Shown: in pieces, positions 37,202 through 63,446 of the stretch
Numbering within the stretch: the stretch's first letter is position 1
Layout of the letters: each line of letters starts with the position of its first letter
Assembly (NCBI GenBank): GCA_023078555.1
Contig: CM041196.1
Coordinates: 4,278,001 to 4,342,000 of the forward strand
Origin: Ulva prolifera
Lineage: Eukaryota > Chlorophyta > Ulvophyceae > Ulvales > Ulvaceae
Direction of reading: 5' to 3'
Length of the DNA stretch: 64,000 nt
Made by a program: the position numbers and the translations under genes
Notes under the pieces: model-generated
The model's database searches: none
The model's input: only the letters and a program-made list of their open reading frames with translations
What the model was told of the DNA's origin: nothing

Positions 37202-40200
37202 ATGAGGATGCGGAAATTGCAAATGGGTTTCGGCGTCGTGGTGGCGCTGCTGTCCGTGAATTTGCATTTGGTGTTGGCTCAAGGTGCTGTTGACTATGTG
37301 GGCACGCCCGCAGCTTTCCAGGCAGCTGCACAGGCTGGCGTGCGCCACATCATCCTCAACAACCACATGGACCTCAGAAGTCTTCCAGCCGACCCACTCT
37401 CGTCGTTGGACTCCACGTTGATCATCAACAGCTCGACCAAGAGCATCAGAGTGCGCCCTCAGGCCTGCACACAGAGGTCGTGGACAACACACCAGCATGC
37501 CATAACTGCTCGTGCACTGTCATATTCACACAAAAAGGAAATTTTCGGCAACATTATTTCGTCAACCGGTCGCGATTCGATGTGCCTGCAGGCGCAAGCG
37601 ATCAGCCTTGGCCATCCTGTGGAGACTTCCTGTGGTCCAGCTAAGCAAGTAGGCATGTACACTATCACGTCAGAGCATATTCAAACAATTTTATTTATCC
37701 TCTCAAGTGTCCTGTGATCTATCAGGATGTGTGCACTGTTCGTTTCCAGGTGCATTTTTAATCTATGCCACCCAGGCAGCTGTCATCTCATCTCATACGC
37801 CTTTCACTCACAGTGCAACCTGCACGGGCTTAGCTCTGGACACCATCGTGCCAGACAAGCGTGTTCTGAACCAGCCTGATCAGGGCGAGCGCCGTCTATG
37901 TAGGGCAATTGCACTGGGGTGCCATCTGCAGCAGACTCGCTGGACCCTCCACTGAGCACAGACGGCCAGTGCATCATCACCGTGGCAGCGCGGCTATTTG
38001 AGATCCGGAACTCAGCGTCACTGCTGTTGTCGGATGTGTACATCGTGCTGAAGACTGATTTTACGCTGTATTCTGCAAACAGTTGGGAACAATTTGAGTA
38101 TGAAGTCCTGTTGCTACGCTCAGCAAATCGACTCGACGCAGTGAATTGTCCTCTAAATCGTGAGGCCAACAAGGCAGCCACCGGCAAATGTGGTACGACG
38201 ACACGATATCGGCCATGCGTTCGGCAGAAAGCACTACACCACACTGCCAGATCTACAGCTGTATGACTACATTTAGGCCAAGGCCAACCCCTGATGTTGG
38301 GCCAAAAGGATCCGCCCACACGGTGGCAACCAGGCGGACCCTTTCTCATATCATCTTGATCGACGTTGGCAATTCCGAGGCGGGGACATCAAAGCAGCGC
38401 TCATGTCTCCCTCAGATGGGGACGTGAACGCATGGTCACTGGTTCCGGCCACGCGCGTGCACAGCGCCTGCACAACTGTGACCTGAGCTCGGGCCATATT
38501 CTGTCGGAATCTCCGTCCGCTGTGGGAATGTGTGTGTGTGTCATTTCTCACTGTGTGCACACACGTGTTCATTGCGGCTACTTCCCTAGCTATGGGAGCG
38601 GCAAGCACCCGCTGCCGCGCACTTGGAACACTCTGAAGCGGTGATCCCGCGTATATTTGTTGCAGCGTCCCACTTTGTCGGGTTCCAGGCGGACGACTTG
38701 GCGGCGGTGCGGTGCGAGGCGGGCATCCCGCGCCGGCTTCAAGGACTGCCTCTTCAACCGTAACGGTAACGCAGCGGAATACCACGGCTCCTGCGTCGGC
38801 CTGCACTCCGGCGACCCCGGACTTGAAGATCTCCCAGCCGCCGCATGGTTCCAGTCGTGCACATTCTCCAGCAATCAAGACAACCTGGTACGTGCCTTCC
38901 TGTACCTACACGTCGGGGGCACCCTCCCACCTGAGCAGGTAGGAGAAGGGGGACTTCAAGTTGGCGAGTCAGTTTGCGGTGCCGCCACAGATGGTGCAAC
39001 GATCAGGGCGCTGCATGGCTGCGAATGGATCCTGGCTCCGCCCCACACCGTGGCCGTGGCGGTGCTGCAGGTGTACCCCCTCTCTCAGGACGACTATCGA
39101 GCGAGCTACTCTAGCGACCACCGTGGTGAACAACAACTCTAGTGACCACGCTGTTCAGAAGGCCGTGGACGCGTCCACCGGCAACTTCATTGAGCCCAGG
39201 CCCATATCCACTGCAGCCGTCCTGGAGGGGGGTTTTCTGATTGCAGACTACGGGGTGTATGAGGAGACCGCAAAGGCGCGCACCGCACTGCCGCATTTTG
39301 GCATCGCAGGCACATACGCCCACGCGGCGAGCACAGTAGGCGCTGTCATGCCGGCGCTGCAGGCAAACCCACATCCACTGCGACGCCTCCTGCCAAGTGG
39401 CGCAGCAGATGGTGGCAGCTCCTGCCCGTGTTCGACTGGGACACAAACGACAGCGACGCCGCTGCGGCTGCTTGAACCCAACACGCTGCAGTGTGATGCC
39501 TCACCATGAGTCCAGTGCAGCACATGGCTGTGGCAGAGTGTCTCCACAACATGCATGGGTGCAGGAGCAATCGCGTCTGACGGGCCTCGATGTTGTGGAC
39601 ATCGGCGGATCGGCCGCGGACGTCGACGCCGACCGGCAGCCGCAGGTGGCCACTGCGGGCGGCGGTGCACCATGGTGGCGATAGTGGCGGCGCGGGCCGG
39701 CTGTCGGCGGCGGCTATTGGGGGCATGGTGGGGGGCCTGCTCGCCGTCCTCCTTGCCATCGTAGCAGCCGCCTTCCTTGTCCGTCGGAAGCGCAAGCGCG
39801 AGCAGAGCAGCAAGCTAGATGCCGGGATGGATGTTCACGTGAGTGGATGTTCACGTGAGTGGATGTTCACGTGAGTGGATGTTCACGTGAGTGCCGCTGA
39901 AGTGCGATCTGTCCTGCCAGCATGAGAAATCCAGGAGCCGTGCCGTGTGGGCCCTCATATGCCGCGTGCATGTGAATACAGTTTGCAGTCCGCGCTTTAG
40001 CTCGGCAGCCCCTGCTGCTGATGCATATGACCATTGACCATTGAGATATCCGGTGGTGCCGCTGTTCAAGGTCCGCCACTGCTGCTGCTGCATATGACCG
40101 GCTCAGCCTGATCAATCAGCATCAACGGTCGCGGCGGGATGCCTCATGGGGAACGGCACATTGAGTGCCCACCACCTGGAGCCTTCTGTAGCTGGCCGCA

Positions 40201-41889
40201 GCGACACAAAGTCTGCCCACTATCAAACCCTCCATCAAGTGTCTGACGGCTTAATCCCCGCTGTCAATGCTGCGTGTTTCTCACCCAGCTCCCCTCAGTG
40301 ATTTGCGGCACAAGCCCTCATGTCACACGCGAAGCACCCGGGCGCACATTCAGCTCCATGCAGCCGCACATGCATGCAGGATGCTGACACAGAAGATAGT
40401 AATGGAAGTGCCAAGGCGTTCTCCAACCGAGCTATAGCATCTCCTGCCACTGCCGACGCTGTCATCCCGCCGACGGCAAGCACTCACTGGGGGACACATG
40501 TCAACTTTGCGACAACAGCAGTGAACCTCAGCAATGGCCCGCCAACGTCCGCTGCGCCGGCGAACAGCAAGCTGGACTACGTAGTATACTTGCACGCGCA
40601 GCTGTCGAGCATCGGCACCGAGGCGGTGGTGCTGGAGCGCTACACACTCCTCGGCCCCAACGACCGCCGCCAGGGTGGTGCGCCGCTCCTTGCCTCATAC
40701 TCTTGCAGTGTCATGGTGGGCTGCAGCTGCGCTGTATTGATTTAGTGGGTACAGCCACGCAGCTGATCCCGTCAATGCTGAGGCCATCACTTGGAGCCGC
40801 TTCTTACAGGCCAGGGCATTGTGGCGTTCGCGCGGGGCGTGCACGACGGCCTCGGCTACGCCCTCAAGTTCTTCGTCGACCGCCCCTCCTTCCTCGCAGA
40901 GCGCGCCATGTACCGCAGCGCCACCCTCGGCACCCTCCTGCCGCAGGTCCACGCCGAGTACGACCCCGAAGAGGAGCCGGCCGCGCTGCTGGACCGCACC
41001 GGCCGGCCGCTGCCGCCATGCATTGTCATGGAGCGGGGAGAGTCCCTCCCGGACTGGTCCCAACGCGCGCGGCCGGACGTCTTCAACGCCGTCGCTGTGA
41101 TCGCGCACGTCGCGACGCGGCTGCGCGCCATGCATGACGGTGGCTACGTGCATCGTGACATTAAGCCGGAGAACCTGATGCTGCTGCCGCGGGCGAATCG
41201 GTGGGCGGTGATTGACTTTGGCTGCGCGGCGCGCGCTGGAGAGGCAGCGCCGCTGTCGTACACGCTAGTGTATGCGCCACCAGAGATTGCGGAGTCGGTG
41301 TCGGCTCGGGCTAAGACGATTGTGGCAGACCCGGCGATGGACGCGTGGGCGCTGGGGGTGGTAGCGTTTTGAGCTGCTGACCGGGCAGTCTGCGTTCAAC
41401 CTCATCACTGAAGGCCGCAGCTCGGTGCGCATCTAACTGCATGCTGTGGCGGCCCATCGGCACTCCAGCTCGGGACTGGAAAGAAGACATCTCTTGGGCG
41501 TGAGCGATGACGCAGAATATGCATGCTTGCATCTGGAATTTGAAAGTACACCCCGTTGCCTTTCTTCCATACCCCCGGGGGCCCGAGGTGCGGCGATCAG
41601 ACCTTTGAACTGCAATATGTTGTGGATGTGATCTGGAGCTGCAGTGTTCAGCTGGAGGGGCGTGCTGGTGCTGCGGAAGCTGCTTGGGCAAGAAGAGCTG
41701 CCGTGGGAGGGGGACCTGGCGGAGAAGAACCCTGCGGCGCGGCGGCGGCTGGGGCTGTTCCGGGAGCCGGTGCTGGCGCTGCTGCGGCGCGACCCTGCGG
41801 AACGTGCCACGCTCGCCGACTTCTGCTGCACCACCGACACCGTCTTCTCCTCCCCCACCACCCTTGCCCCCACCACCATGGGCCAGTAG
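37202..41889 (+). pseudogene. receptor-like kinase 1 with beta-helix-like ectodomain, broken copy
   Basis: Paralogue of the gene at 47479-54459. Recognisable parts: signal peptide and first ectodomain exon 37202-37450; second exon from 37904 (GNCTGVPSAAD...); third 38666-38887; a membrane exon ending 39838 (AAAIGGMVGGLLAVLLAIVA, then RRKRKR); juxtamembrane exon 40380-40677; kinase exon 40810-41424; last exon 41668-41889. Lesions: (1) the third exon changes frame between SHFVGFQADDLAAVRCEAG and AGFKDCLFNRNG; (2) the kinase exon is 615 bases against 614 in the paralogue, because TTTT replaces TTT at 41369-41372, creating TGA inside the conserved WALGVVAFELL helix; (3) the base before the last exon gives CTG instead of the CAG acceptor. 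The kinase core is otherwise intact (ALKFF, HRDIKPEN, DFG, APPE). It is probably a pseudogene, unless (2) is a sequencing error. Confidence 0.75.
39828..39892 (+). repeat. 16-bp tandem repeat over a splice donor (4 copies)
   Basis: Four copies of a 16-base unit (TGGATGTTCACGTGAG) begin exactly at the end of the membrane exon of receptor kinase 1. Each unit recreates the donor CAC/GTGAGT, so four identical donors lie 16 bases apart. Use of the second or third would shift the frame. Confidence 0.85.
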
Positions 41890-42903
41890 AGACCGCCCGG
41901 CTCTCGTGCACGAGAGTTTGGCTAATGATGCTGTGGGCGGGGTTCGCTCACGTTCTTGGCCAAGAGTATAGGGGCTGTGCTGCTGTCGGCGTATAGCTAC
42001 ACTTGGTGCAGTGCTGCTGCGCTCGTGAGTTGAAAGGAAGGGGGGGGGGGGGGTTCTCTAGAATGGTGGCATCTAGAGGCCAATCAAGAATCCATGCTGA
42101 GCATGAGAAGTCAGACAAAACGCAAGTGAAATGTCCTTGTGGCTGTGTTGGGTGAGCGCAGCGTAGCACGATCGAGGTGTCTTGGGGCGCATGTGTTGGA
42201 TGGCGCCAAAGGGGCGTGAAATCGAGTCAAATTTCTAAGTTCTGGACGTTTCTTCCAGTCTCAGTCAGTCTCGCTCTAGAAGACTGAACATTAGGGAATT
42301 TTGCGACCTGATTCGGTGTTGGTTGCTTGACTCACTTGTGCGTCTGATGAGGCCGGTTGGCAAGGCTGAAACATGATATGCCGGTCCGTGATGTTCGAAA
42401 TGAATTCATGTGAAACAGCATCAACCAGTGAACTTTCTACCTCAGTAACTTCATGTGACGGATGGCGTACAGTCAAGTGCACGTGCGTTTCAAGTTGACT
42501 GGCTAGACATCCAGAGTGACACGGTACGTATGTGTACAGGCGGTTCCACAGATCTCGGATGGCCATGCCGGCTGAAACGTTTCCAGTCGGCGTTCGCAGC
42601 TGTAGGGAGCAACGGCCGCTGGCGCCCTTGCTGACTGGCCACCGGTAGCCACCTGTGCAGTGCTCTACAGGGCCAGTTTCTGGAGAGGGGATTCCCCTCT
42701 GTAAATGACTCATCCCAGTGGTATTACCCCTCTGGACCTTGTCATTTCCAGAGGGCTTTCCCGATGCGATGCTTTGATCTCAGAGGGATGCCAAAAGTTT
42801 TTTTTTGCGGTTCAACTATAGGCCATTCACAGTGCCAGGCAATGCATACACACAAATTAAACCACACAGTAACGACGATAATAACAAGAATTGATATCTT
42901 TGA

Positions 42904-43149
42904 TCACTTAGCAAACAAAATGCGGTGGGTCACCGACGCATTCTTCTTGGCTGCAGCTGGTTGCGTGCCTGCATCGAGATCGGCGGCAGCCTCGACAGAG
43001 GCCGCAGCCTCTACATATCCTGGGCCGTCATTCGTATTAGTATCATTAGGTGAGCTTGATGCTGCTACAGGGGTGCCGGAAGTGCTAGAAATGTCATCGC
43101 GCTTCTTTGGGGCTGAACCCGTGAACCGAATCGACGAAGCATTGTACAA
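42904..43149 (-). CDS. hypothetical exon or small ORF
   Basis: Minus-strand open stretch ending in a stop at 42904 and preceded by an acceptor-like CTTTTTAG at its 5' side. The product is Ala/Ser/Asp-rich (SAPKKRDD..., AAASVEAAADLDAGTQPAAA) and probably disordered. No family recognised. It may belong with the coding remnant at 43528-44090 on the same strand. Confidence 0.25.
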   Translation of the reverse strand: MYNASSIRFTGSAPKKRDDISSTSGTPVAASSSPNDTNTNDGPGYVEAAASVEAAADLDAGTQPAAAKKNASVTHRILFAK

Positions 43150-43527
43150 ACCTAAAAAGACAAACAGCGTTGAATTGCAGAGCTATCGGGCATCAATATA
43201 TTATATATTATAATATCTCACGTAGCAGTGGAGTGTTAGCATGCTATACATGCGGCGCTGACAACCAAGCACACTGTACCCCTAAGGACACTTTGCCCTG
43301 CCCAAGCTGGCGAGCTGGCTTCACTCGCGAGCCTCCTTGAGGAGGGTTGCTCCGCTCGTGCTGTCACAACAACCCGCTCGCTTGCCTCGCGTGATGCACA
43401 TTCCAGCGAGACAGGCCGCTGAGACGTACAGATGCCAGCTGGCTGCCTGTTGGTTTGATTCACATTGGCTCTCCGAAGGCCGACTTCAAGGGAGTGTATA
43501 TAGATGGTTTGTAAGTTATGAGGCCAC

Positions 43528-44090
43528 CTAGCCCCTGAAATCCGCAGCCAAAATGGTAGAGTTGCAGTTGTGAATGACTGGTGCCATGGTGCTGAGGTAT
43601 GTTATGGCTGTTTGTGCCTCGAGTGAGGTCCAAAAATGCATGTTCAGCCCCCTGGCTTGTCGGAAAAACCGACGGCTCGCTTCGCTCACCGTCGGGTTTT
43701 TTTTGCCCTTTTCCATTTTCTTCGGGAAACAGATCGGGATGTAGAGCTCTGGATCAAACTCGCTTGCTGCGCCGGCGCCCGCGGCCGCTGACATCTGCTC
43801 TAACAGCCCGTTTTCAGCGGGCGATCCCGCTGCCTTCAGCCCATCCGTGGCGGCATTTCCAGACACAAGCTTTATTTCTGCGGGAATCTCGGCGGGATAT
43901 AGCGCACTGCACCCGTGCCTGCCTCAGTGAGAACTCCGGCGCGTGGATCAGCCAAGGTCAACCGCATGCTCGCAAAGGCGGAACATTCCTGGTTTCTGAT
44001 AGCGTTCTTAAGTCGTGTCTGCATCACGCTGGCCTTGTCGATTATGGGTGTGAATGTGTCGCATGCCGAGTCGCATTGCCGACATGAGTC
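43528..44090 (-). pseudogene. decayed coding region of unknown family
   Basis: Reading leftwards on the minus strand, one frame gives protein-like sequence from about 44070 (DTFTPIIDKASVMQTRLKNA then SMRLTLADPRAGVLTEAGTG). At ~43905 the frame changes by one and continues (YPAEIPAEIKLVSGNAATDG ... FDPELYIPICFPKKMEKGKK ... ARGLNMHFWTSLEAQTA) to a TAG at 43528. The single frame change could be a very short intron or a frameshift. It abuts the 44.2 kb inverted-repeat element and may be part of a mobile element. Function unknown. Confidence 0.4.
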
Positions 44091-44227
44091 TCCGACATGC
44101 GTCGCGCATGCGCAGCCACTGTGAACTCACGGTACCAGAGCTGGACACAGCTGCACCAGATCAGCCGCAACAGAGGCAGAAATCATGAGAGCATTGCCAG
44201 CGATGTCTCGGCCACTGTGCTCGGCTC

Positions 44228-45818
44228 CAGCAGGGGGGTCGGCACTCGGGCCTCATGCACGTCCAATTGAACCGCGAGCACCTCAGAAAGCTCAAGACAG
44301 CGCTGGGAACGTCTCTATACTCACAGTAATCATAAATGCTGCTGTATCTATGTTTTAAGTCGCTGGGCGAAATCGACCTTTGGCCCGCAATCCGCGTGCA
44401 TGGCTGGGCAAAAAGCCCCATTGTGCCCAGCGAGCGCGAGAACGCGCCCAGCGGCACCAGAAGCATTCCCAATGGCTTTGGAATATCCCAATATGCCTGT
44501 TGTGCATTCTGATGCGTTATAAATCGTCTGTTGTGTTGCTGCGGGCGGCACAGTGCATGCTCTGCCATGTTTGCTTCCCTGGGACGCCATCGACCGCGTC
44601 ACTAGAAGCTGGTATGCACAGAATAATCACCGGAGGTATTTGAGATGGTTTTCCGGGTCTGGTGAGACTGTTGATTGCGCTCTGTTGCTCTGGCTGGGGG
44701 GCAGGTTGGCTGTTGCATTTTGTACTCCATAGCGCTGGGCGTTGTCAACAGTTGATCACGACAGAGCCAAGCACAGACTCTGCAGCACATCTGATTGGCA
44801 TGTCCTGATAACATGTGTGACACTTGTCCTTCCATCCAGCTCACTTGTGACGACCTGGTTGCATACATGTGTGACTCTGTACCACTGGAAAGCAGTGTAT
44901 CGCCCTCGTCAGCAGATCGGGAATGTTTAGGACCATGGCAGGCTGTTACACTGTGCGTGGATGTACAGCATGTTTGTGTGGATTCAAGCGAACAATGACG
45001 TGCCTATGCAAGCCTCCCATTTTGTAGAATGGTGCTTGCAGTCCATGCTGATGATAGGCATATACGTTTCAAATTATTATCCTGATCGCTTTTGAAGAAT
45101 ATATCTGGTCGGTGGTGCTGCTTTCCCTGCGATCTCAAGGTGTAAAGGATCACTGATATCATATCAGTGATATGCAGTGTAGCATGCTACATTGACTGAT
45201 CCGGAGGTTCACTTAGTACTGTATGGACAGGAATCAAAGTATGGGTAGCCCGACAACAATGCTATCTTAAGATGAAGCTCACAACACTAGAGCTGCTGCG
45301 ATGTTTCGAGTCTCTCAGCAAGGAGCACGTCATCCACCTGCTCTTTGTTCACCACACAAGACAGCTGCATGTTAACTAAAAGTCCGGTAAGCTCGTCGAA
45401 ATCATGGTACTCGTTGGGATTCGTCTCGCTAGTATTCACGCCCGCCATGGTGCTGGTCGGACGCGAACACCGCACGGTGACACAAGTGGAGTCGGCAGAC
45501 AGTGGAACAGCAAGGCATCATATTATAGTGTTTTTCGAGTGCTCTCTGCCCACTGAGCACGATGGGCATACGCTGGGCACCATTTGAGGCCATCTGAGAC
45601 GTCGCTGGGCAAAACGGGGGTTTTGCACGAAAAACACCGATTTCGCTGGGCATTTTCGCCTGTTACGCCCAGACTGCGTACAATCACTTCAAGAGGTTAC
45701 TGTGAGTCTATAGGACTTTTCCTTCTGTTCTGGAGCTTTCTGAGCTGCTCGCGGTTCAATTGGACGTGCATGAGACCTGAGTGCCGAGTCGCACTGCCGA
45801 CCCCCCTGCTCCAGAACT
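44228..45818. mobile_element. inverted-repeat element (arms ~100 bp)
   Basis: Left arm 44228-44333 and right arm 45699-45818 are reverse complements over about 100 bases, starting AGCAGGGGGGTCGGCA and including CATGCACGTCCAATTGAACC. The right arm carries a 13-base internal duplication. Sub-terminal GCTGGGC motifs recur in both halves. A third, solo copy of the arm lies at 62415-62480. No transposase is recognised and no target duplication was found, so it is probably a non-autonomous element. Confidence 0.6.
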
Positions 45819-45855
45819 TCGTGCAGGTGCTGGGCAGAGTTTCGTCCGGGTTAGG

Positions 45856-47250
45856 GGGTCATCCACTCCCGCTAAAGGGTGGTCCCCCCCCGGGCGCGCA
45901 AAATTCGCTGGGAAACAGAGAAATTGGGGAAGGTTTCCACTATTGTCTATGTCGAATGAACAATCGTAGTGTTTTAGTTCGGAGTCTTGGGCAAAATGGG
46001 TCACAATCGCCGAAATGGCCGGTCTGGTTGGGGAGAATCTCGATTTGCCGTCCTCGGCTCCCCAATGTTGCCCAGTGTCTCAGCTCCTTTCCCAATCTTT
46101 CCCAAACTTCTTCTACAACCTTTTCTATTGTGTTATGTTGCCCCTAGACGGCCGCGCTGCATCGAATTTGTCAAATGAGAGGCAACTGATTCACGCACTT
46201 TGAGACGGCACGCAGGGGTAACAGTGCACAAGTGAGACAAAATGAGTAGCTTTAACTGTGTCTATTCGCGAACTATCACACCATTTTACGTGTCTTGGCA
46301 TCTGCAGTTTCAGCGATCTCGAATCGTTCCTGTCTCTCTGACAGGGCAGAAGACGGTGACCCGGAGGTGCACCAAATGGACCCTGCTTGACAACACAAGC
46401 AAAAGCACGAGAGCATATAACCTCGTTTTGTTGCCTGTACATCGAATGGAACCAAGTCACGGCCGGTCGGAGCATTTGTGCTCGTGCAGTGTGCAAGCCA
46501 ATGCAGTTGCAGAGCTGAACAACGGTCGAGGCTCTAACGGGCCCACATACAGGATGCAAGTCCAAAGCCTGGAGTTAGTGGCGTAGTGTGATCGATGTGT
46601 TTAGTGAGGTGGCGAGCCTGTCGTGGTGAATGAGTGCCTGACATCCTCCGATGTGGGCTACTTCTCGCGAGGACGCTGTCAAACAGCGCAGAATGCTTGT
46701 TCCGACTGCTGATCTGATGGTCTTGTTTTGGTATGCGATGAGCACGTGGTTGCGTCGCGTTACGAAAGAACTGTGCGATAAACGTGCCACACAGCCGTCG
46801 ACGCACATAATCGGGGTTGTCTCATTGATCAACGACGCTGCTTAACATATGACAAAAACACCATCGATCGACGCTTGCTTGCCGTCTCCAGCAAGTTGAT
46901 TGGCAGCCGAACGACACCACGTACTGTACACACTGTGTCGGGTCATCCGGATACAACGGAAATACACCAACCACAAAGATAGCAACATATTATAGCTTAT
47001 TTATGGCGTGGTTCGTCAGCAAAGGCGAGTGATTGGGGACGTTATCTCGTCGTTCTGTCGATATTGGGGAGAATGGCTGATTTGTGCCGAAAAGGGTACG
47101 AACCTTGGGGACTTTTCCCAAGACTGAGATCGAACACTACGAGTTCCCAACCTACCTGAACAATAGTGGAAACCTTCCCCAATTTCTCTGTTTCGCAGCG
47201 AATTTTGCGCGCCCGGGGGGGGACCACCCTTTAGCGGGAGTGGATGACCC
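45856..47250. mobile_element. inverted-repeat element (arms ~200 bp)
   Basis: Begins GGGTCATCCACTCCCGCTAA at 45856 and ends with its reverse complement at 47250. The arms match for about 110 bases almost perfectly (C run, GGGCGCGCAAAATTCGCTG, then AGAGAAATTGGGGAAGGTTT) and weakly for a further ~90. Length 1395 bp. No transposase ORF is recognised inside. It follows the 44.2-45.8 kb element within 40 bases. Confidence 0.65.
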
Positions 47251-47478
47251 ACTTCCGGGATCCCGGAGGTCGGAAGGATGTGTTCGTGCACGCCTTGCAA
47301 TTTGAATCTTGAAACAGCATATGTACGAAATCTCGTGTTATGTATATCCTATTACACAAAGTGTCTGGTGTTACGTGTGTTCACTTTCGCTTGCGTGAGC
47401 AGCTCCAAGCAGGCCTTCGTGCAGCGTACAGCGACTGAGGTGTCGCGTCCGTTGGAGGGACGGTGCTTGCAGCCTACG

Positions 47479-50400
47479 ATGCTTCTCTTGATCACTGCTT
47501 ACGCCATTTTCTTGTCGATGTTCGTTGCAATTGCGTCGGGCAATGCGTCGGGTACGCCGGAAGCAGTGGCGGTATCAAATCCGTCGCAATTCCTGACCGC
47601 TGTCGGATATGGAGTTCAACACATTGTCATCTCAGAGGATCTGGATATGACATACACGCCAAGGTTCTCAGCGGCGAGCATCACGGATTTCGGCATTAAC
47701 GCCATGGTCGCCATCGTTCCTAACGAGGACAACGAATACACGAAGAGCATCCGGGTACGAAGCACTGCAATGCAGAATCGCTGCTGTCATTTGTGATTCA
47801 AATTGAAGTCGGGCGCATGCTTGTTGACTGCTCATCAGTGGATCTGGCAACGTGTATTCTCTGGCATCCCATGTCGTACAGCGTCACTGTGCGCAGCTGG
47901 CGGGACTCTGCGGCTGCATGGCATATGCTCTGAAGGGCCCTTGCCCGGCAGATGTTGTTGCCTGTTTGTTGGGGCTGACAAACTCCTTTCTGTTAGGGCC
48001 TACTGTCCCCCATACCTCTCCGAGAAGAGTCTTCTATCCTAGGCCTTGCAAAAATGGTCAGCGCGACTTGACAACTGTGCCTGCCAGAGTGCTGCCTGTG
48101 GCTCCCTTGCGCCCTGTGCATGGCCAGTGTGAAGCGGGTGTGCTATTGCCTCAGAACTCTGACACATCCCGCTGGCAGCACAAGTTGCAAATGCCTGCGC
48201 GATCACTCGAGTGTCATGACGCAGGAACTCAACTGCATGCACGGCCAGCAGCGACTTAACTGCGCTTCGTTGCTACACGATGGACACTTTGGCTGTTACA
48301 GAAGGTGATGTGGTGTGATCTTGGAAAATAGGGGTGCATATGCAATTGCAATTGCATGCATCAGCGATACATAGGGCCCAAATGCTTTGGATGTACTGCT
48401 CTGGCATCATGCATGTGCACCGTTTTTAACCTAGATTTTTGTCTGAGGTCTACATGTGTTGCCTGACCTTTCGTAGAAGAGTTCAGACTGTGATGAATGC
48501 GTGTCTTCTGACTTCAAGTTCACGCGAATTCAAATGCCTTCAAACAACCATCACTAATAGTATATGGGTATGATTACACCCAAGTCATTGACTTGGAGAC
48601 GTAGAGTTGGATTTGTGTTGTTACTTTGCTAGCTATGTCAACTGACATCCGGGCCTGGCTTGAACCCTGTGCACGTGATGGAAGCATTGATTGGTATGAC
48701 GAGTGTCCATACATGACGAGTGTGTCCATATATGACGAGTGTCCATATATTATAAGATATCTATGGTACAGCACGGTGACGCGTATGCCTGATCCTTGGC
48801 GCCGACCTCATCTGCCTCATGCATGTCATCCCAGCCGACGACGCTGACGCGGCGTGCGCTGCTGTGTATGTCGCGCCAGTCCTGTGTGGGGTATGTATAC
48901 TATGTTGGCCTGAACATTCCGCACAGTTGCCGCTCCGCGAAGCAGGCTGCGGGCGGTTGGTGATGTTGAAGAGAGGCCACAGGGCTCGCACACGTACACG
49001 CAACCCCCCGCCCACGCGTGCCAATCAGACGTAGCCCCAACTTCATGCACAGAAAAAACCCACCGCCTCCTACGTGGCCGAGGTGCTCAGCACGGTTGAA
49101 CCCGGTGCTGCAGGAGGCTCCAAGCTGACCCCGCGCTCGCCGCGGGCCCCACAGCATGCAGGGGCGCCCCCCAAGCCACCGCCCCCAAACCCTGTCAAGC
49201 GTTTTTGTGCGTGTGTATCAGTTGTCTGCCCCTTCGGGTCAAAGTGCCGCTGCATGCGCGCAACTGCATGAAAAGCGACGCCCGAGTCGGTTTCACATCG
49301 TGCACTGCACTGCATGAGGCTATCCGAGTCGCTGTGCCACCACACTCATCATGTTCGAGGCGCACACTGCAGACTGCACGATGTCCTTTTTGTTCTGCAG
49401 AAGTTGTTGCGCACTGCACACAGCAGATGCATGCACACTTAATGCTTGATGTGCAAATGAGATTGGAACCACAGGTGATCGTCTGCCTTCCGTGACGTGC
49501 AGCGCCCCTGTGTGGAGTTGTGCTCGTTCATGGAACGCTGCAGGTCTATGCTTTGAGCAACCATGCATCTCGCCTGCTGCGACGTGGCAGCAACGGCATC
49601 ACCACTTCTCCGACAAGCACGGTCATGAATTCGCTTGCAGGGTAACTGCACCACCTCCCCATCTGGTCTGACCCTGGCTCCTCCTCGGAAACCAGGCCAG
49701 TGTGTGATCACTCTGCGTGAGGACTTCCTCGAGGCGCCCCTCCAAAATTCCCAAGTGTGGGTCTCCAACTTGTATGTGACGCTGCGTGGCGTCGAAAAGA
49801 ACTACAGCACCCTCATAGCCGCACATGGGGCGGACATGTACTTGACTGACATGACCTTCATCGCCGATGGAGACAAGGCCCGCGCAATCGACGTCAAAGA
49901 GAATCGCCGTGTGTTTGTTTCCCGTGCGTTCCCCTGCGCCCCCACCCAGATCTCTGACTCTACTAGTACTGTGATGCTGCTGGCAGCCAGGTTGTGCTAG
50001 CAAACAGCCCCATGCATCCACGCGCGGCTCTTTGCAGGCTCATACTTCTCTCAGTTCTCACAGGAGAAGGATGCCGTCATGCGCCTCGAGCCTGGCGCTC
50101 GTGCGACTCTCAGTGACGTCACCTTCCGCAGAAACACTGTCGCCAGTAGCAAGCCTGACGTCGTGTCGTCCGGGCCCATCATGGGCCTATACTCCGGCCG
50201 CACCAGCGGCGGTTCCGCGGCGTGGTTCCACAACTGCAGCTTCACCGAGAACTTCTCCGAGGTGACTGCCGAGGTGGCCGTGGAGAACAGCAGCTGCCAC
50301 GTCTACTCCAACACGGAGCTGCCCACCGTCTGGGACCTCGAGCTGCAGCGGGAGGTGAGCGCGTGGCCGCTGGAGACGGCGGGGCCCGCCTCCTCGGAGA

Positions 50401-53400
50401 ACGCCACCGTATTTGCTGGGATCCAGGGCAACAGTCGCTTCCTGCGCCCCACGGACACCAGGTTTGCCCGCATCGTTGCCGACCACATGCAGAGCACCGG
50501 CCTGCCGGCGCCGGACGTCCCGGCCCTGCCGGACGGCACCAAGCTCACCACCAGCGACCCTTACAGCGCGATCAACCTCAACACCACGAGCGACGCCAAC
50601 ACCACGAGCGGCGCCAACACCACGTCATCTGGCGCTGCAGGCGACGGTAGCGACATGAACATCAACGTAGGCCTGATCGTCGGCCTTGCCTGCGGCGTGG
50701 TGCTGCTTGCCATGATGGCGCTGCTTGCGGCCTGGTGGTTCCGATGCCGTATGAAGTCTGACGTGAAGAATGTGCGCCTACGTATACGCTACGTGCCTGA
50801 GCTACGTGCACCTGTACTGAAGCGCTGCCTCTGGAAGGTCCTCTGCCATGCGTATGTATAGATGGACCTGCCACTGTGCGCAATTTCTGTCGAGTTCATG
50901 ACCTGCACCTGTCGCGTTGATTGTCTGAACTGCAAGTTCAAGCAAGGTGCTTGCCAACAAGTGAACAGGCAGCTGTTCGAAACGGTTTTGGATCATAGCG
51001 CTAGGTGGTGGGGCAGATTGATGCAGGTCGCTTCTGGCCATGGTGTACCACATTCAGTGATATCTTTTGCTGCAGCAGCAAACGCAGGACCCCGCTGATT
51101 GGTCCTGTGTTATCGGCATTGCAGCCCCCATTTGTGATGTGAAAGTCGTTGTATCGGAAGTCTGGGATTCGTATCTCATATGAGTAGGGCTGGCCCCAAG
51201 GGGTATATTGGGTTCCTTATACCGGTATAAGGGTATACATTCTTATACCCAGGGTATACAGATATAAGATCAAGGTATAATGAACGTTTTCGATTATAGA
51301 GACGCGATGAAACATCTGATCACAAAAATAATTAGATATTCAGAAAGCCCTTGTTGTTGTGATGTCTGCTGATACTGAAAGTATTCATTTCAGGTTTATA
51401 GGCGCTGTGTAGGCATTGTTGAGTGTTTCAGGTTAGGGTGGAAAAACACTCAATGCCTGACTCACTTTCCAAGATTGACTGCAATTCGCTCAGAAAGTTA
51501 CAGAGCAAGCTATTTATATTGTTGGAATTGCCGTGAACAGTACTTTCCGATGATATCAGTCACAAAATTAACAGCTGATGTGTGTGATGGCCAAGATGGT
51601 TTTCCAGCAGACCCTGTTTTCAGCACCTCTCAGCTCGTTCATAGCCCAAGCACACCCCGTTTGCAACCCATTTGCAGCCCGTTCAGCCGGATCATCTATT
51701 CTTGCTCTACAGCGCTCAGCAACAAGTCGAAGTCTTCCATGCTAGCTTGCTGAGCACGTGAATTGAAGCAATACGTGATCATTTTTCTAGCTCGCTCAAG
51801 GGACAGCGAATTTCTAGAAGCAGTGTACACTCTACCCCACAGTGACCAATTGCGCTCTGTAGATGCAGATGTGGGGTGCATAGCAAGCAGCTGCAATGCC
51901 ACCCTGGTCAACTCTGGCCAGAGACCAGCACCTTTTTTCCTCCACACACTCGCACGTGCATGCAACCGGGGCATCGTTGCTGGCGCATACAAAGCATGCA
52001 AAGAAATCAAATCGTTGCGATACGTATACTCTGATGGAAGAGGGCTCACTTGAAGTTGTGGCTGCTCGCTTGACCTGAGCTGCGCGGCATATGTCCGCAG
52101 TGTGGTCTTTCGTGTGCCACTTGGACGGGTTGCCAAGCTGACAGCCTTGTCCACAGGACTTGCATACCAGTTTGAACGCATCTACATGGACGCATCTACA
52201 TGGACGCTTTCGTCGTCAACGACGTCCAGCCTGTACCAAACCAATCCAGCTCTCGCTTTAGACGTCAGGAATGTCAATTTGTCGCGCGCAGCTGTCCAAG
52301 ACGAGAGAGAAATATTGTTGAATTTGATTGCGGACTGCGGATTGCTTTCATTTTCGTCTGTGCGACCCCATGACTAGCACGAACGTCTATTGTGTTTGAT
52401 GCCATCGAAACAATCGCCTAAGTGCAGATCTACAGACCAAGAGAGTAATGCTGGGTTCCGTAGACCCGTTATACCGCTGTTGCTGCAGAGAATAAAATTC
52501 TGCAAGGGTATATCGTTACTTGAATATACCCCTCCCAGGGGTATACCGACATATCGGGGTTATACCCCTTATTCTGCTGATTTTGAATTTATACCGGTAT
52601 ATATACCGTATACCCATTTACCGGTATAAAGCCTTATACCGGTTTACCCCAGCCCTACATATGAGCAGTAATCGCGATGTCGGTCACAAGGACATGATTC
52701 TGCAGGACCAGGGCGTACGATGTTGACTGCTGCATTATGGCTGTCTACGTGTAACCTGATTCGGAAGGGATGCCGTTGTCTGCACGCGTCAATTGTTTTG
52801 TTACATATACATGCTGTTGGCACCGGCACTCTGTTCCCCACCCACTCAAAGGGTCTCATGGCCCCATCTGTGGTGTAGCAGGCAGATGCAAAGAGCCTTG
52901 CGCGCACCGGCACCGAGGCCGAGAGCGCCGTGCCCGCGATGCACCACCCCAACTGGTCCGTCCCCCCCGGCACAATCTATAACAATCATGGAGCCACAGC
53001 GGGAGGCCACAGTAGTGACGCTAAGTCGACGGCAGCAACTGCGGGCTCGCCATACAGTGCTGAGCCCGCCATCCGGCTCCCAGCAACCACGCACTGGACG
53101 ACCAATGTCGATTTCGCAGCAACGGAGGTTGACCTCAGCAACGGGCCACCGATGGCGTCCGCAGCGACAGGCAGCAAGCTGGACTATTTGCACGCGCAGC
53201 TGTCGAGCATCGGCACCCAGTCCGTGGTGCTTGAGCGCTACACACTGCTCGGCCCCAACGACCGCCGCCAAGGCGGTGCGCCCCCCCTCCATGCTTGTGC
53301 ATACTCTTGCAGTGTCATGGTGGGCTGCAGCTGCACTGTATTGATTTAGTGGGTACAGCCACGCAGCTGATCCCGTCAATGCTGAGGCCATCACTTGGAG

Positions 53401-54459
53401 CCGCTTCTTACAGGCCAGGGCATCGTGGCGTTTGCACGGGGTGTTCACGACGGCCTCGGGTACGCCCTCAAGTTCTTCGTCGACCGGCCCTCCTTCCTCT
53501 CGGAGCGCGCCATGTACCGCAGCGCCACCCTTGGCAACCTCCTGCCGCAGGTCCACGCCGAGTACGACCCCGCAGAGGAGCCGGCCGCGCTGCTAGACCG
53601 CACTGGCCGGCCGCTGCCACCATGCATCGTGATGGAGCGCGGGGAGGCCCTGCCGGACTGGTCCAAGCGCGCCCGGCCGGACGTCTTCAACGCCGTCGCC
53701 GTCATCGCGCACGTCGCGACGCGGCTGCGCGCCATGCATGACGGTGGCTACGTGCATCGCGACATAAAGCCGGAGAACCTGATGCTGCTGCCGCGGGCGA
53801 ATCGGTGGACTGTGATCGACTTTGGCTGCGCGGCACGTGCCGGGGAGGCAGCGCCGCTGTCGTACACGCTGGTGTATGCGCCGCCAGAGGTCGCGGCGGC
53901 GGTGGCAGCGGAGGCGACGACGATTGTGGCGGATCCGGCAATGGACGCGTGGGCTCTGGGGGTGGTGGCGTTTGAGCTGCTGACAGGGCAGACTGCGTTC
54001 AACCTCATCACTGAAGGTCGCGAATCTGTGCGCCTCCGAGGCTGCACCATTGCTCCCTCGACTTGCTACTTCTGTGCTAGAGATGTAACTAAGCATCTGC
54101 AGGACTGCTCACGGAAGTTGACCTTTGTAGGAGCCGCCTGGCCATGCATTCGCATGTTCGGGCGCCAAGAATGTGGCGATCTGACCTGTCACAAGATGTT
54201 TCAATCGTGCTATCAGGAGCTGCAGCCACACACTGAAGGGTGTGTGCAGGTGCTGCGGAAGCTGCTGGGGCAGGAGGACCTGCCGTGGGAGGGGGACCTG
54301 GCGGAGAAGAACCCTGCGGCGCGGCGGCGGCTGGGGCTGTTCCGGGAGCCGGTGCTGGCGCTGCTGCGGCGCGACCCCACGGCCCGTGCCACGCTCGCCG
54401 ACTTCTGCCGCACCACCAACACCGTCTTCTCCTCCCCCACCACCCTCGCGCCCACGTAG
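47479..54459 (+). CDS. receptor-like kinase 2 with beta-helix-like ectodomain (intact, six exons)
   Basis: Predicted single-pass membrane receptor kinase of 836 residues. Exons 47479-47754, 49641-49923, 50038-50771, 52882-53275, 53414-54027, 54250-54459; phases match throughout. Signal peptide: MLLLITAYAIFLSMFVAIAS. The ectodomain (~25-400) opens with PSQFLTAVGYGVQHIVISED, like the start of pectin-lyase-fold proteins, and has repeated short strands with turn Asn (LSDVTFRRN, FHNCSFTEN), as in parallel beta-helices. A Thr/Asn-rich stalk (NTTSDANTTSGANTTS) precedes one membrane helix (~403-428). Kinase: Lys582 in GYALKFF, HRDIKPEN at 677-684, DFG at 698-700, APPE, then DAWALGVVAFELL. The glycine loop is atypical. 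No ligand can be inferred. Intron 3 contains a hAT element; intron 5 is 222 bases with no in-frame stop. The beta-helix call is inference. Confidence 0.82.
48690..48756. repeat. short tandem repeat, ATGACGAGTGTCCAT unit
   Basis: Three imperfect copies of a unit containing GACGAGTGTCCATA in intron 1 of receptor kinase 2. Confidence 0.6.
51185..52657. mobile_element. hAT transposon with 8-bp target duplication (in receptor kinase 2 intron)
   Basis: Termini TAGGGCTGG ... CCAGCCCTA are flanked by identical 8 bp duplications CATATGAG (51177-51184 and 52658-52665), the hallmark of hAT transposition. Length 1473 bp. Sub-terminal regions at both ends are packed with GGTATA/TATACC motifs, which often bind hAT transposase. 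It carries a transposase C-terminus on the minus strand. The insertion is entirely intronic. Confidence 0.88.
51696..52181 (-). pseudogene. hAT transposase C-terminal fragment
   Basis: Reads TSASTERNWSLWGRVYTASR then NSLSLERARKMI: the hAT C-terminal dimerisation domain signature, with the conserved Ser-x-Glu-Arg-x-Trp, Gly and Arg-Asn-x-Leu. The upstream part has no recognisable catalytic region or BED zinc finger. The element is therefore non-autonomous or depends on exons I cannot identify. Confidence 0.8.
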
Positions 54460-56219
54460 CCACCACCTTTCCCCCTGCTGTCCCCTGCCCCACCCCCACA
54501 CAAGAAAGGTTTGACTGATGTTGGCGCAGGTACTGCACACAGTTGTGGCCAAAGCAACGGCTTTGTGCAGCCGTTGTCACGGCCGTGCGGCCCGTGCAGT
54601 GCAGCGCAGTCCAGCTGCGCTTGCTTATTGCAGATTCTGCGGGGGCGGGGGAGCATTTCCGTGAGAAGGAAGCCACAGCAGCACCCATGCTTTGCATGCT
54701 ACGCCTCTGAGCCCGGTGTCCAGTGCACAGTCAGTTAACCGGGCCGGGCACCAGAGTCGCCCCAAATAACATCAAGTTGCGTAAATCCGACTGCCCCAGT
54801 CTGGTGACACCAAGCGTTGAGGCACGCTGGGTCGCTCAGAACCCGACGCACAGCCAGAATGGAACGATTTCATTTTTACAGCTCCACTTTTCATTTGCTG
54901 TTTCGAATGATAATCATGATGATCGAGTTTTCAACATGCCTGCTCCAGCATCCTGGAGTGATGTTCGTGTTGGCACTACGGAAGGCCATCAAAAGATATT
55001 CTGATTGATTACCCAGAATCGGAGAGCAGACTGTGTCCTCCTGCTCACCCGTGTGGCTTGCGTGTGTTGCAAGGATAAATGCGGCGAGGCGGGCAACACC
55101 GCGAAAGAAGCTTTTGACTTGCGTGTGAAGCTTCTGGTAACCATGGCCGCTGCGTCAGCGGTGATGGGGAGTTTTTTCTGCCTACTTTTTCCCGCTGAAC
55201 GTTGCGGCATAGTCAAGCGAAGTAAAGCTCAACAGTGCATACTATAGCTAGCAACACCAGGCCCGCCTTCCTGAGGGCCTCTGCCGCCGCGGGGGCGCCC
55301 TCAGTCACTGCAGAAGCTGTTGCCACTAGCAGCACCGAGTTGTCCTTATGGCGGTCTTACAGCGACCTTACCTCGTCCTCACATGGGGCGTAAGGCCGGT
55401 ATAGGGCCAGGTTAAGGACAACTTTGGGATTTGAGGCATGGTCCTGGTCCTTATGTAAGGACCATCGTAGGCGGCATAAGGATTGGTCAAGCTCCTTGCC
55501 TTATGATAAGGTAATCCTTACATTTCCTGTCCTTACAGATGGGACTGAAAATGGAAACCATGCCAGTGGGATGTTAGGACCATGTCATGACACTGTGAGG
55601 TTTTGTACTCATGGATTCAAGGTGCACTCTCAGACCACCTGGTCGTGTCCATAAGTTAAGGTCAAGGAGAGGACACCCATTACTGGTAACAATAAAGCTG
55701 TTGCGCCCCGGCGCATCCCGGGAAGGCGAGCACAGATGCTCCGTGTACCCCGCGGGTTCAGAAAGGCCATTTCACAAGCAGCCCGCGTCATCGTACGTAG
55801 TGTCTGTTGTGCAGCCTATTCGTCGAATTATTTCGCTGCCGTGTTGCCTAGGTATCACCCGCATACAAAGACACATGACTGCACCATAACTGTCCCCACC
55901 AGAGACTCGCAAGTTCCAAAGCGCGACCTCATAGCCTCCCCATGTTTACACCGAGCCTTGCCATAATCCTTGGCACTAGAGTATCCTTACAGAGCTGTAA
56001 CACGTATCCGCAGACGTGCCAAGTGGGGTCCCAAAGATAAGGACTGCACAGTGTGTCCTTATGCTCCTTGAGCCACAGCCTTGCCGCCTGTATGGCTTGT
56101 GTTATCCACGTGGTCGTCATAAGGATGATTTTGGGCCGTCCACGTGCGAGGAGCGCATGGGGGTCCGATAAGGACATGTCGGTGCTGCTAGTGTGCTGCC
56201 CTGCTGCCCCCCACCTTCT
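54460..56219. other. intergenic; contains an inverted-repeat element
   Basis: No gene recognised. The inverted-repeat element at 55324-56193 occupies half of it. The rest is the 3' flank of receptor kinase 2. Confidence 0.6.
55324..56193. mobile_element. CCTTA-rich inverted-repeat element (870 bp)
   Basis: The left end (CACTAGCAGCACCGA, two variable bases, TGTCCTTAT) is the inverse of the right end. CCTTA/TAAGG motifs recur more than ten times between the ends, mostly as TCCTTA or TAAGGA. No ORF of a transposase type. No clear target duplication. Probably a MITE-like non-autonomous transposon with sub-terminal binding motifs. Confidence 0.6.
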
Positions 56220-56244: not shown

Positions 56245-59200
56245 GCGGCCAGTGCATATATATACAAGCGACGAGCCCCCCTTCGGGGGGCTCTTGCGCT
56301 TTGATACTCGAAGCTGCAGCATGAAGCTCGATGCTGGCGGAGCGCTGCAGCCAGCGTGGCCAGAGGTGCATCGCAGCTGCGGCGCTCTGCTGCTCGATGC
56401 AGGGTGCTCGACGCTCGATGCAAGCGATTTCTGTCGCAGTAAATATAATGCATAAGTTGTGTTCAGAATATGTGATATTTCAGCAGGGCTCGAAAAGGCC
56501 GCGTCCGTGGCGGAGCGCCGCTGAAAAGCTCGATAGCCAGTAGACGTGGCCCGAAGGGGGGCCCGAAGGGGGGCCTGTCGGTCCTCGACGCTTGAAAAAC
56601 GTGATGCTTGAAGCCGACGCAAGCGATGCCTGACACGCTGAGGACGATGCAAACGCTACACATAAGTGCTGTGACGCCTCGGCTGGCTCCGAAGCGGTCG
56701 CATCCGTGGCGGAGCGCTGCAGCCAGCGAGGTGCAGCGCTCTGCCGCGCGATGCGTCATGCTCGAAGCTCGATGCAATTCGTTTCTGATACATTAGATAT
56801 GAAGTATATAATTTAATTAAAATATGCGATGCCTCGATCGGGCCAGAATCGGCCGCGTCCGTGGCGGAGCGCCGCTGAAAGCCGCGTGGCCAGAGGTGCA
56901 GCGCAACTTCGGCGCCCTTCAGCGCCGCAGACGCACGACGCGAACGCGAAGCGACCGGCGTCGCGGTGTTTCCGGATGCAGATGCACAGATGCGAAGCCG
57001 ACGCCGAGGCCCCGACGCGGAGGCGAGGCCGGAACGGAGCAGCCGCCGGACAACGGATACATAGATACATACATACACAAGCGACGAGCCCCCCTTCGGG
57101 GGGCTCTTGCGCTTTGATACTCGAAGCTGAAGCATGAAGCTCGATGCTGGTGGAGCGCTGAAACCAGCGTGGCCAGAGGTGCATCGCAGTTGCGGCGCCC
57201 TGCTGCTCGATGCACGGTGCTCGACGCTCATTGCAATCGATTTCTGTCGCATTATAATGCAAAGATCATGATCAGAATATGTGATGTTCCAGCAGGGCTC
57301 GAAGCGGCCGCGTCCGTGGCGGAGCGCCGCTGAAAAGCTCGACAGCCAGTACACGTGGCCCGAAGGGGGGCCCGACGGGGGGCCTGTCGGTCCTCGACGC
57401 CAGAGAAAACCGATGCTCGAAGCCGACGCAATTGATGACTGACACGCTGAAAACATTGCAAACGCTACAGATAAATGCTGTGACGCCTCGGCTGGCTCCG
57501 AAGCGGCCGCGTCCGTGGCGGAGCGCTGCAGCCAGCGTGGCCAGAGGTGCAGCGCTCTGCTGCGCGATGCGTCATGCTCGAAGCTCGATGCGATTCGTTT
57601 CTGATACAATAGATATGAAGTATATAATTTAATTAGAATATGCGATGGTTCGGCTGCGCCAGAAGCGGCCGCATCCGTGGCGGAGCGCCGCTGAAAGCCG
57701 CGTGGCCAGAGGTGCAGCGCAACTTCGGCGCCCTACAGCGCCGCAGACGCACGACGCGAACGCGAAGCGACCTGCGTCGCGGTGTTTCCGGAAGCAGACG
57801 CACCGACGCGAAGCCGACGCCGAGGCCCCGACGCGGAGGCGAGGCCGGAACGGAGCAGCCGCCGGACAACGGATACATAGATACATACATACACAAGCGA
57901 CGAGCCCCCCTTCGGGGGGCTCTTACGCTTTGATACTCGAAGCTGAAGCATGAAGCTCGATGCCGGCGGGGCGCTGCAGCCAGCGTGGCCAGAGGTGCAT
58001 CGCAGCTGCGGCGCCCTGCTGCTCGATGCACGGTGCTCGACGCTCGATGCGATCGATTTCTGTCGCAGTAAATATAATGCAAAGGTTGTGTTCATAACAT
58101 GTGATATTTCAGTAGGGCTCGAAGCGGCCGCGTCCGTGGCGGAGCGCCGCTGAAAAGCTCGACAGCCAGTACACGTGGCCCGAAGGGGGGCCTGAAGGGG
58201 GGCCTGTCGGTCCTCGACGCCAGAGAAGAGCGATGCTCGAAGCCGATGCAAGTGATGCCTGACACGCTGAAAACAATGCAAATGCTACACATAAATGCTG
58301 TGACGCCTCGGCTGGCTCCGAAGCGGCCGCGTCCGTGGCGGAGCGCTGCAGCCAGCGTGGCCAGAGGTGCAGCGCCCTGCCGCGCGATGCGTCATGCTCG
58401 AAGCTCGATGCGAATCGTTTCTGATACATCAGATATGAAGTACATAATTTAATTAGAATATGCGATGCCTCGGCTGCGCCAGAAGCGGCCGCGTCCGTGG
58501 CGGAGCGCCGCTGAAAGGCGCGTGGCCAGAGGTGCAGCGCAACTTCGGCGCTCGATACCGCTGCAGACGCACGACGCGAACGCGAGGCGACCGGCGTCGC
58601 GGTGTTTCTGGAAGCAGATGCACCGATGCGAAGCCGACGCCGAGGCCCCGACGCGGAGGCGAGGCCGGAATGGAGCAGCCGCCGGACAACGGATACATAG
58701 ATAGATAGATACACAAGCGACGAGCCCCCCTTCGGGGGGCTCTTGCGCTTTGATACTCGAAGCTGAAGCATGAAGCTCGATGCTGGCGAAGCGCTGCAGC
58801 CAGCGTGGCCAGAGGTGCATCGCAGCTGCGGCGCCCTGCTGCTCGATGCACGGTGCTCGACGCTCAATGCAAGCGATTTCTGTTGCAGTAAATATAATGC
58901 ATAAGTTGTGTTCAGAATGTGTGATATCTCAGCAGGGCTCGAAGCGGCCGCGTCCGTGGCGGAGCGCTGCAGCCAGCGTGGCCAGAGGTGCAGCGCTCCG
59001 CCGCGCGATGCGTCATGCTCGAAGCTCGATGCGAATCGTTTCTGATACATCAGATATGAAGTACATAATTTAATTAGAATATGCGATGCCTCGGCTGCGC
59101 CAGAAGCGGCCGCGTCCGTGGCGGAGCGCCGCTGAAAGGCGCGTGGCCAGAGGTGCAGCGCAACTTCGGCGCTCGATACCGCTGCAGACGCACGACGCGA

Positions 59201-59490
59201 ACGCGAGGCGACCGGCGTCGCGGTGTTTCTGGAAGCAGATGCACCGATGCGAAGCCGACGCCGAGGCCCCGACGCGGAGGCGAGGCCGGAATGGAGCAGC
59301 CGCCGGACAACGGATACATAGATAGATAGATACATACAGTGATGCTGAATATAATACTTATGATATACATACAGTGATGCTGAATATAATACTTATGATA
59401 CACAAGCGACGAGCCCCCCTTCGGGGGGCTCTTGCGCTTTGATGCTCGAAGCTGAAGCATGAAGCTCGATACTGCCGGAGCGCTGCAGCC
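56245..59490. repeat. ~815 bp tandem satellite, left block
   Basis: A perfect hairpin marker recurs at 56273, 57086, 57902, 58722 and 59411, giving periods of 813, 816, 820 and 689 bases. Each monomer contains sub-repeats: the phrase GGCCGCGTCCGTGGCGGAGC occurs about three times per monomer, separated by ~195, ~160 and ~455 bases, so the 815 bp unit is itself a higher-order repeat. The 689-base copy lacks one ~200 bp sub-unit and gained a minisatellite. Long ORFs through it follow from the repetition and are not called as genes. Confidence 0.92.
59335..59399. repeat. 29-bp minisatellite, two copies
   Basis: The unit starts ACAGTGATGCTGAATATAAT and ends ACTTATGAT. The same unit occurs four times at 61383-61498, at the same position relative to the satellite monomer. 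Confidence 0.85.
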
Positions 59491-60645: not shown

Positions 60646-60653
60646 CTGCAGCC

Positions 60654-61382: not shown

Positions 61383-63197
<1,815 letters not shown>

Positions 63198-63446
63198 GCT
63201 ATCGTTGGAGCCGGGGCTGCTGGTCTCGTGGCAGCGCGCGAGTTCAGAAGGGCAGGGCATGCGGTGCAAGTATTCGAGCAGCAGAGCGACATCGGTGGCG
63301 TGTGGGTGCCGGATGATGGCGAACTTGCCGGGCCTGGTCCAGAGGGAGTCAAGGTCCACACCAGCATGTACGATAGCTTGCGAGTGAACCTCCCAAGGGA
63401 GCTCATGAGCTTTTCGGACTTCCCGTTTGTGCCGGAGTTCATGCAA
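63198..63446 (+). CDS. flavin-containing monooxygenase, N-terminal exon (partial)
   Basis: Probable FAD/NADPH-dependent monooxygenase acting on N or S groups. The exon begins AIVGAGAAGLVAAREFRRAG, the GxGxxG FAD-binding motif at the very start of the FMO fold, followed by the acidic strand end VFEQ and then GGVWV. SLRVNLPRELMSFSDFPF matches the plant/algal FMO block 'lrtNlPrelM.f.dfPf'. The acceptor CTGTGCAG precedes GCT, and a GTGCTC donor follows FMQ at 63447. The reading frame is open upstream only to a TGA at 63129, so a short first exon must lie further left. The rest of the gene, including the NADPH site, lies beyond the window. Confidence 0.8.

Follow-up and report, generated by a model that had tools for sequence, protein, structure and literature searches.

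We analysed a window of 64,000 nucleotides of Ulva prolifera (assembly GCA_023078555.1, contig CM041196.1, positions 4,278,001-4,342,000 of the forward strand; GC content 57.4%, against 57.2-57.3% tabulated for two Ulva species, PMC9266709) that contains part of a tandem array of four kinase genes. Locus A (37202-41889) and gene B (47479-54459) lie inside the window, and genes C and D lie beyond its right end, where coordinates past 64000 are given in window-continued numbering. The positions of A and B proposed in an initial annotation of this DNA hold; its distance of 10 kb between them is right from start to start, but the gap between the two is only about 5.6 kb. When the genome was searched for the kinase cassette shared by A and B (88.9 Mb, 44 contigs, the contig of the array being labelled C1), one more full copy turned up 11 kb past the right end of the window. 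This third cassette belongs to gene C (C1:4,351,255-4,354,779), which has six exons and is intact; the fourth gene, D, has the same ectodomain as C. The exons and tracts of A and B given below are on the plus strand.

Gene B consists of six exons separated by GT-AG introns and encodes 836 residues. Exon 1 (47479-47754) is signal-peptide-like and ends in TKSIR, exon 2 (49641-49923) encodes ectodomain, and exon 3 (50038-50771) encodes further ectodomain and the membrane helix. Exon 4 (52882-53275) carries the juxtamembrane part and the start of the kinase and is followed by intron 4 (53276-53413), by exon 5 (53414-54027) with the kinase core (ALKF, HRDIKPEN, DFG, and APP-E) and by exon 6 (54250-54459) with the kinase end and the stop codon. 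The B kinase matched Pkinase with an E value of 1.4e-18. ALKF, HRDIKPEN, and DFG are present in both B and C, so that the lysine, the HRD aspartate, and the DFG motif are all in place, and on inspection each of the two proteins begins with a hydrophobic stretch and has a single clear hydrophobic helix. The 60 best of 1,131 solved relatives of the kinase comprised PknA, PknB, Aurora, DMPK, and CaMK-type kinases, with no plant receptor kinase among these 60, and tblastn of the cassette against phage records gave weak bacterial-type kinase matches only. Intron 3 of B harbors a hAT transposon of 1,473 bp (51185-52657) with the ends TAGGGCTGG and an 8-bp target duplication, CATATGAG; its minus strand codes for a hAT dimerisation domain (PF05699, E value of 1.5e-7).

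Locus A has the same layout but is a broken copy. Exon 1 (37202-37450) has a signal-peptide-like start, ends in TKSIR in phase 0, and is 44% alike over 50 residues to P0025, one of the relatives from U. mutabilis described below. Homology to exon 2 (37904-38146, the end being approximate; GNCTGVPS...GQCIIT...) was detected by tblastn with P0001 and P0003, and homology to the beta-helix of exon 3 (38650-38875) is split into tblastn segments in frames 3 and 1. A membrane-segment-like stretch follows at 39674-39793 (a weak match, E value of 0.01), and then come the shared part of exon 4 with juxtamembrane and kinase start (40463-40677), intron 4 (40678-40809, GTGCGC...ACAG), kinase exon 5 (40810-41424), and last-exon homology (41668-41889). 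The reading frame shifts twice, near 38,725 within the ectodomain and, within the kinase, near 41,370, where a stop follows DAWALGVVAF, and the acceptor of the last exon is CTG in A versus CAG in B and C. A is not an intact gene, and as a broken copy it does not form a working pair with B. The ratio of nonsynonymous to synonymous divergence (dN/dS) of A exon 5 is still low, 0.10 against B and 0.15 against C, which suggests that the decay of A is recent, that its kinase was patched from a neighbour, or that single-base assembly errors contribute. The ectodomain of A, present in short pieces only, could not be assigned to a clade. Two of these pieces (38728-38903 and 39686-39811) recur inverted near C1:4388648-4390000, with 84 to 86% identity, beside a further kinase gene, and this is possibly the source or a relative of the A ectodomain. 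Three exact tandem copies of GTGAGTGGATGTTCAC lie at 39839-39886, likely at the exon 3 end of locus A.

The kinase cassettes of A and B, described initially as nearly identical by eye, are indeed alike, giving a single BLASTN alignment of 1.4 kb (A 40463-41873 to B 53070-54455) with 83% identity. The rest of the two loci gave no DNA alignment, and none of the ectodomain exons of A aligns to those of B, in agreement with the view that these share little; the first exons end in TKSIR in phase 0 in both, and introns 4 and 5 have matching phases. Within the cassette, from CATACTC in intron 4 to 10 bases inside exon 5 (A 40696-40819, B 53300-53423), A and B are identical at 123 of 124 positions, and over the whole of intron 4, 124 of 132 compared columns agree. 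The synonymous divergence (dS) between A and B falls from 0.72 in exon 4 to 0.34 in exon 5 and 0.13 in exon 6, so that intron 4 is more conserved than the silent sites of the exons flanking it (0.34 to 0.72), in line with what the initial annotation had noticed. The identity of intron 5 between A and B is only 55%, and that of intron 4 between C and B is only 57%.

A three-way comparison of the cassettes showed that the closest partner changes along the gene. In intron 4, informative sites joined A with B in 55 cases, B with C in 6, and A with C in 1, while in intron 5 the counts were 1, 92, and 2, and in exon 5 they were 7, 35, and 23, respectively. Neither the excess of A-B sites at B 53194-53410 nor the excess of B-C sites at 53595-54480 was matched in any of 20,000 shuffles of the informative sites. 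B and C are 92 to 99% identical per 100 bases over about 53954-54503, a tract spanning the end of exon 5, intron 5, exon 6, and the start of the 3' flank, versus 66 to 90% beyond it. A third pair shares a tract at the acceptor and juxtamembrane start of exon 4 (52867-52971), where B and D are identical at 97 of 105 positions; B and C reach 72% over 52814-52943, and the B and D ectodomains 78%. Divergence is thus not uniform along the genes, and local tracts of excess identity occur with a shifting partner. The cassette is a mosaic of gene conversion between tandem neighbours, as the initial annotation had suggested.

Two other explanations would keep intron 4 alike without conversion. A functional RNA or regulatory element could account for an intron identical at 123 of 124 positions in A and B while exon silent sites differ, but we consider this highly unlikely, since C is only 57% identical to B in this intron, the sequence occurs in A and B only in a search of the genome, and equally local sharing is seen in other introns and pairs, such as intron 5 of B and C. 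A structured or known RNA in particular was rejected, there being no Rfam match in the region at gathering score and unremarkable folding (z-scores of -0.36 for B and -1.22 for A). A mobile intron, that is, an introner-like element recently inserted into both genes, would explain why near-identity is confined to one intron and why GCCAGGG occurs at both ends of intron 4 of A. It is even less credible, as the two genes that carry the intron are homologous and have it at a corresponding position in one phase, and C has an intron of different sequence at the very same site. This candidate was rejected because just two copies were found genome-wide, in a search that skipped very common words.

Exchanges of larger size took place as well. 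A block at 61627-75057, of which the left end (61627-64000) lies in the window, is repeated at 79132-88949 with 95 to 99% identity. Flank, exons 1 to 3, and membrane helix lie in the block, those of C in one copy and those of D in the other, and both copies end in intron 3 behind GGTGATGG. Up to this point C and D are about 96% identical in flank, ectodomain, and membrane segment, with proteins 97 to 100% identical over exons 1 to 3; their kinases are different, so that near-identical ectodomains, as in paired receptors, sit on different signalling parts. Directly beyond the junction, C contains the fossil of a second membrane segment (75060-75142), which is about 75% similar to those of B and D and is followed by the A/B-type kinase, while D has an open exon starting like that of B, then a Pro/Gly-rich stretch, and then another kinase. 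The latter reads YYAMK and DFA and does not hold the full set of lysine, HRD aspartate, and DFG, so that by its sequence it is divergent and probably dead; a search with it in its own genome gave no close relative, the best other match being 44 to 51% over short pieces. The dS between the C and D ectodomains is 0.064 to 0.078, as opposed to 0.49 to 0.80 between those of B and C, which have a dS of 0.18 in exon 5, indicating that the sensor half common to C and D is recent and that the kinase half common to B and C is older. A single recent crossover from B to C as the origin of C was rejected, since divergence between B and C, both at silent sites and in the 3' flank, is much greater than within the C-D block.

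The block could also be an assembly artefact in which two haplotypes were set in tandem, since haplotypes too may be 95 to 99% identical over 10 to 13 kb, and the 28-kb contig C23, which repeats part of contig C7, suggests that this assembly may contain duplicate sequence. We regard this as unlikely, given that entirely different kinases follow the two copies, that a fossil membrane segment stands behind the junction in C, and that the array sits on a contig of 12.7 Mb. Moreover, even haplotypic alleles with one ectodomain and different kinases would represent an exchange of halves.

The array belongs to a large family. Searching with the kinase exon gave at least 145 matches, merging to at least 111 places at 2.5 kb; both are lower bounds (133 of 646 candidates were scored), and ectodomain and intactness were checked in part of them. 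Three of these lie on C23, which repeats C7 near 622-650 kb with equal match scores and is probably an assembly duplicate. C7 carries a second array of four paralogues (G, H1, H2, and I), where the kinase core is the best-kept long piece in five of six pairs (87 to 92%, versus 65 to 83% upstream). Among 28 proteins examined from U. mutabilis, a species for which a 2024 review table gives one receptor-like kinase (RLK; PMC10868138), 27 contain kinase sequence, which in 25 of them is preceded by a hydrophobic segment. The nearest relatives found of each half, UM113_0009, UM113_0007, UM113_0005, UM053_0060, and UM011_0039 (P0001, P0025, P0045, P0002, and P0026, respectively), have the family and architecture of the array genes. 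P0003 has no kinase, and no clear kinase was found in the 3.7 kb searched behind the ectodomain of the U. prolifera locus E1 (C1:1511811-1513415); in having a family ectodomain without a kinase behind it, both look like receptor-like proteins.

Trees of 25 kinases and 20 ectodomains disagree. They were built without the D kinase, the long-branch kinase N4386, the ectodomains of A and G to J, and 13 of the 27 kinases from U. mutabilis. The ectodomain tree places B, C, D, E1, E2, and F on one side with P0001, P0002, P0003, P0025, and P0045 (support, 100/100). In the kinase tree, A, B, C, F, G, H1, H2, I, and J form a clade with P0026 (100/99), and E0, E2, P0001, P0025, P0045, and P0048 form a separate group (100/100). 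Sixteen genes are present in both trees; B, C, and F switch side and 11 stay where they are, with P0031 and P0033 left unsettled. Both ways of reconciling the trees were rejected by approximately unbiased (AU) tests (P values of 7e-6 and 4e-31). B, C, and the distant paralogue F thus carry the ectodomain of one clade on the kinase of another, i.e., a clade-I ectodomain with a P0026-type kinase, whereas the U. mutabilis relatives combine clade-I ectodomains with clade-I kinases. The suggestion that a cassette had been transferred onto different ectodomains is borne out by this disagreement.

The ectodomain of B matched no Pfam family. A beta-helix had been proposed for it, and a confident structure model of a pectate-lyase-like right-handed parallel beta-helix with stacked three-strand coils was obtained, but for the U. 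mutabilis relative P0003, which is 33% identical to the B ectodomain, and not for B itself. The predicted fold is that of pectate and pectin lyases, placed here outside a membrane-bound kinase. The further proposal of a diversifying sensor on a fixed kinase is half right at best and was not supported as such. Ectodomain dN/dS of B against C or D is 0.14 to 0.46 per exon, silent sites too are more diverged in the ectodomain than in the kinase, and C and D combine one sensor with two very different kinases. From the dN/dS values, gene-wide positive selection was rejected as the cause of ectodomain divergence. A recent duplication of whole genes, followed by faster evolution of the ectodomain under selection, could be invoked for the likeness of A to B and of C to D. 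Receptor ectodomains usually evolve faster than their kinases, and here the dN/dS of exons 1 and 3 (0.38 to 0.46) exceeds that of exon 5 (0.11). This course of events is nevertheless very improbable, because silent divergence and introns shift stepwise with a closest partner that varies between stretches, because the ectodomain and kinase trees conflict strongly, and because C and D match at 96% up to one point and are unrelated past it.

The reading that we favor, and hold to be quite likely, is that A to D form a tandem array of a large receptor-kinase family in which halves were exchanged and tracts converted, with A decayed, B and C as receptors, and C and D as possible competitors. The gene plan is a 5' half (signal peptide, beta-helix ectodomain, and membrane helix) and a 3' half (kinase), split by intron 3 and a loose juxtamembrane exon. 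The sequence shows four steps. An older exchange placed a clade-I ectodomain onto a clade-II kinase, most simply in a single event that preceded the separation of F from A/B/C. A later block duplication brought the flank and ectodomain of D before the kinase of C, leaving the fossil of another membrane exon behind the junction; short conversion tracts of about 100 to 550 bp patched introns, exons, and the juxtamembrane part between neighbours; and A decayed. The functions of the array genes, i.e., ligand, kinase activity, and paired role, are predictions. B and C may be membrane receptors that recognise a glycan, or some other ligand of the wall or surface, through their pectate-lyase-like beta-helix and that signal via an active Ser/Thr kinase. 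D may present the same sensor as C on a divergent kinase that is probably inactive, and the two could then be competing versions of one receptor, C signalling and D not.

Several points weigh against parts of this reading. The models of A, B, C, and D are sequence-based predictions, and the D kinase is joined to the D ectodomain solely via the open exon with its B-like start; C and D may partly represent two haplotypes that the assembler set in tandem. The contrast between B-C and A-C support gave no signal (7,892 of 20,000 permutations), and in the sixth pair of the C7 array, H2-I, the kinase piece runs through introns at 80%, no better than the best neighbouring piece. Pairwise comparison supplied the groups for the AU tests, but these were run after a quick tree had already been inspected. 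F joins A/B/C in the kinase tree at 86/81 only, and a single ectodomain clade of B, C, D, and F, absent from the tree, was not rejected (P value of 0.071); two independent exchanges, for F and for A/B/C, are possible. As to the fold, a Foldseek search with the P0003 model gave no match at an E value of 0.001 or below (best, 2e-3), and a first model of P0001, from an eight-row alignment, was poor (predicted local distance difference test score of 42.8) and was kept out of the fold search.

The vertebrate paired immune receptors Siglec-11 and Siglec-16 signal through ITIM/DAP12-type pathways rather than through kinases and differ in this from the Ulva genes. Like C and D, they have near-identical ectodomains on different cytoplasmic parts; the ectodomains are kept alike by conversion, in which a nonfunctional copy is involved (PMC5701461). 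Work on the cysteine-rich receptor-like kinases (CRKs, DUF26) of land plants reports swaps between ectodomain and kinase and conversion among close tandem copies (PMC6368629); tandem expansion, conversion, and disagreement of ectodomain and kinase trees are thus common to CRKs and the Ulva genes, which differ in their beta-helix ectodomain and in their kinase, with no plant receptor kinase among its 60 best solved relatives. For the OAK cluster of Arabidopsis thaliana, likewise a tandem array, an identical 2.7-kb stretch has been described in two genes, which terminates within 60 bp of the start of the kinase-coding region and was read as conversion; compatibility is decided by the ectodomain (PMC3136440). 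OAK ectodomains are of the Malectin-like/leucine-rich-repeat type and the exchange concerns alleles within a species, whereas in Ulva, exchange also joins unrelated kinases to one ectodomain. The initial annotation had known of no described algal system of this kind, and we found no description of algal beta-helix receptor kinases in the literature searched, which did not cover the U. mutabilis genome paper, where expanded kinases may be described; the mode of evolution itself is known from land-plant receptor kinases (PMC6368629 and PMC3136440). Exchange within receptor arrays is known from land plants and animal immune receptors, and the large algal family looks like a new variant.

Tentatively, Ulva-type seaweeds might have evolved a large receptor-kinase system independent of the plant RLK family. 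Its sensors would use the pectate-lyase fold to recognise polysaccharides of the wall or of microbes, and recombination in its tandem arrays would combine them with kinases that are active, alternative, or dead, giving signalling and decoy pairs such as C and D; we see this as possible rather than probable. Recombining receptor-kinase arrays are best known from land plants, and a separate large seaweed family that relies on this evolutionary trick with a different ectodomain fold would offer a second case in which to study how surface sensing is built in green multicellular organisms. B, C, D, and F would be clean natural chimeras for asking which half sets the ligand and which the output, and in families that exchange halves in this way, comparison of whole genes for orthology would be misleading.

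Between B and C, a block of large-unit repeats lies at 56255-61443 of the window, with offsets of about 800 bp and others and copies mostly about 89 to 99% alike, and a perfect tandem duplication of 687 bp occupies 67378-68748 (C1:4345378-4346748).

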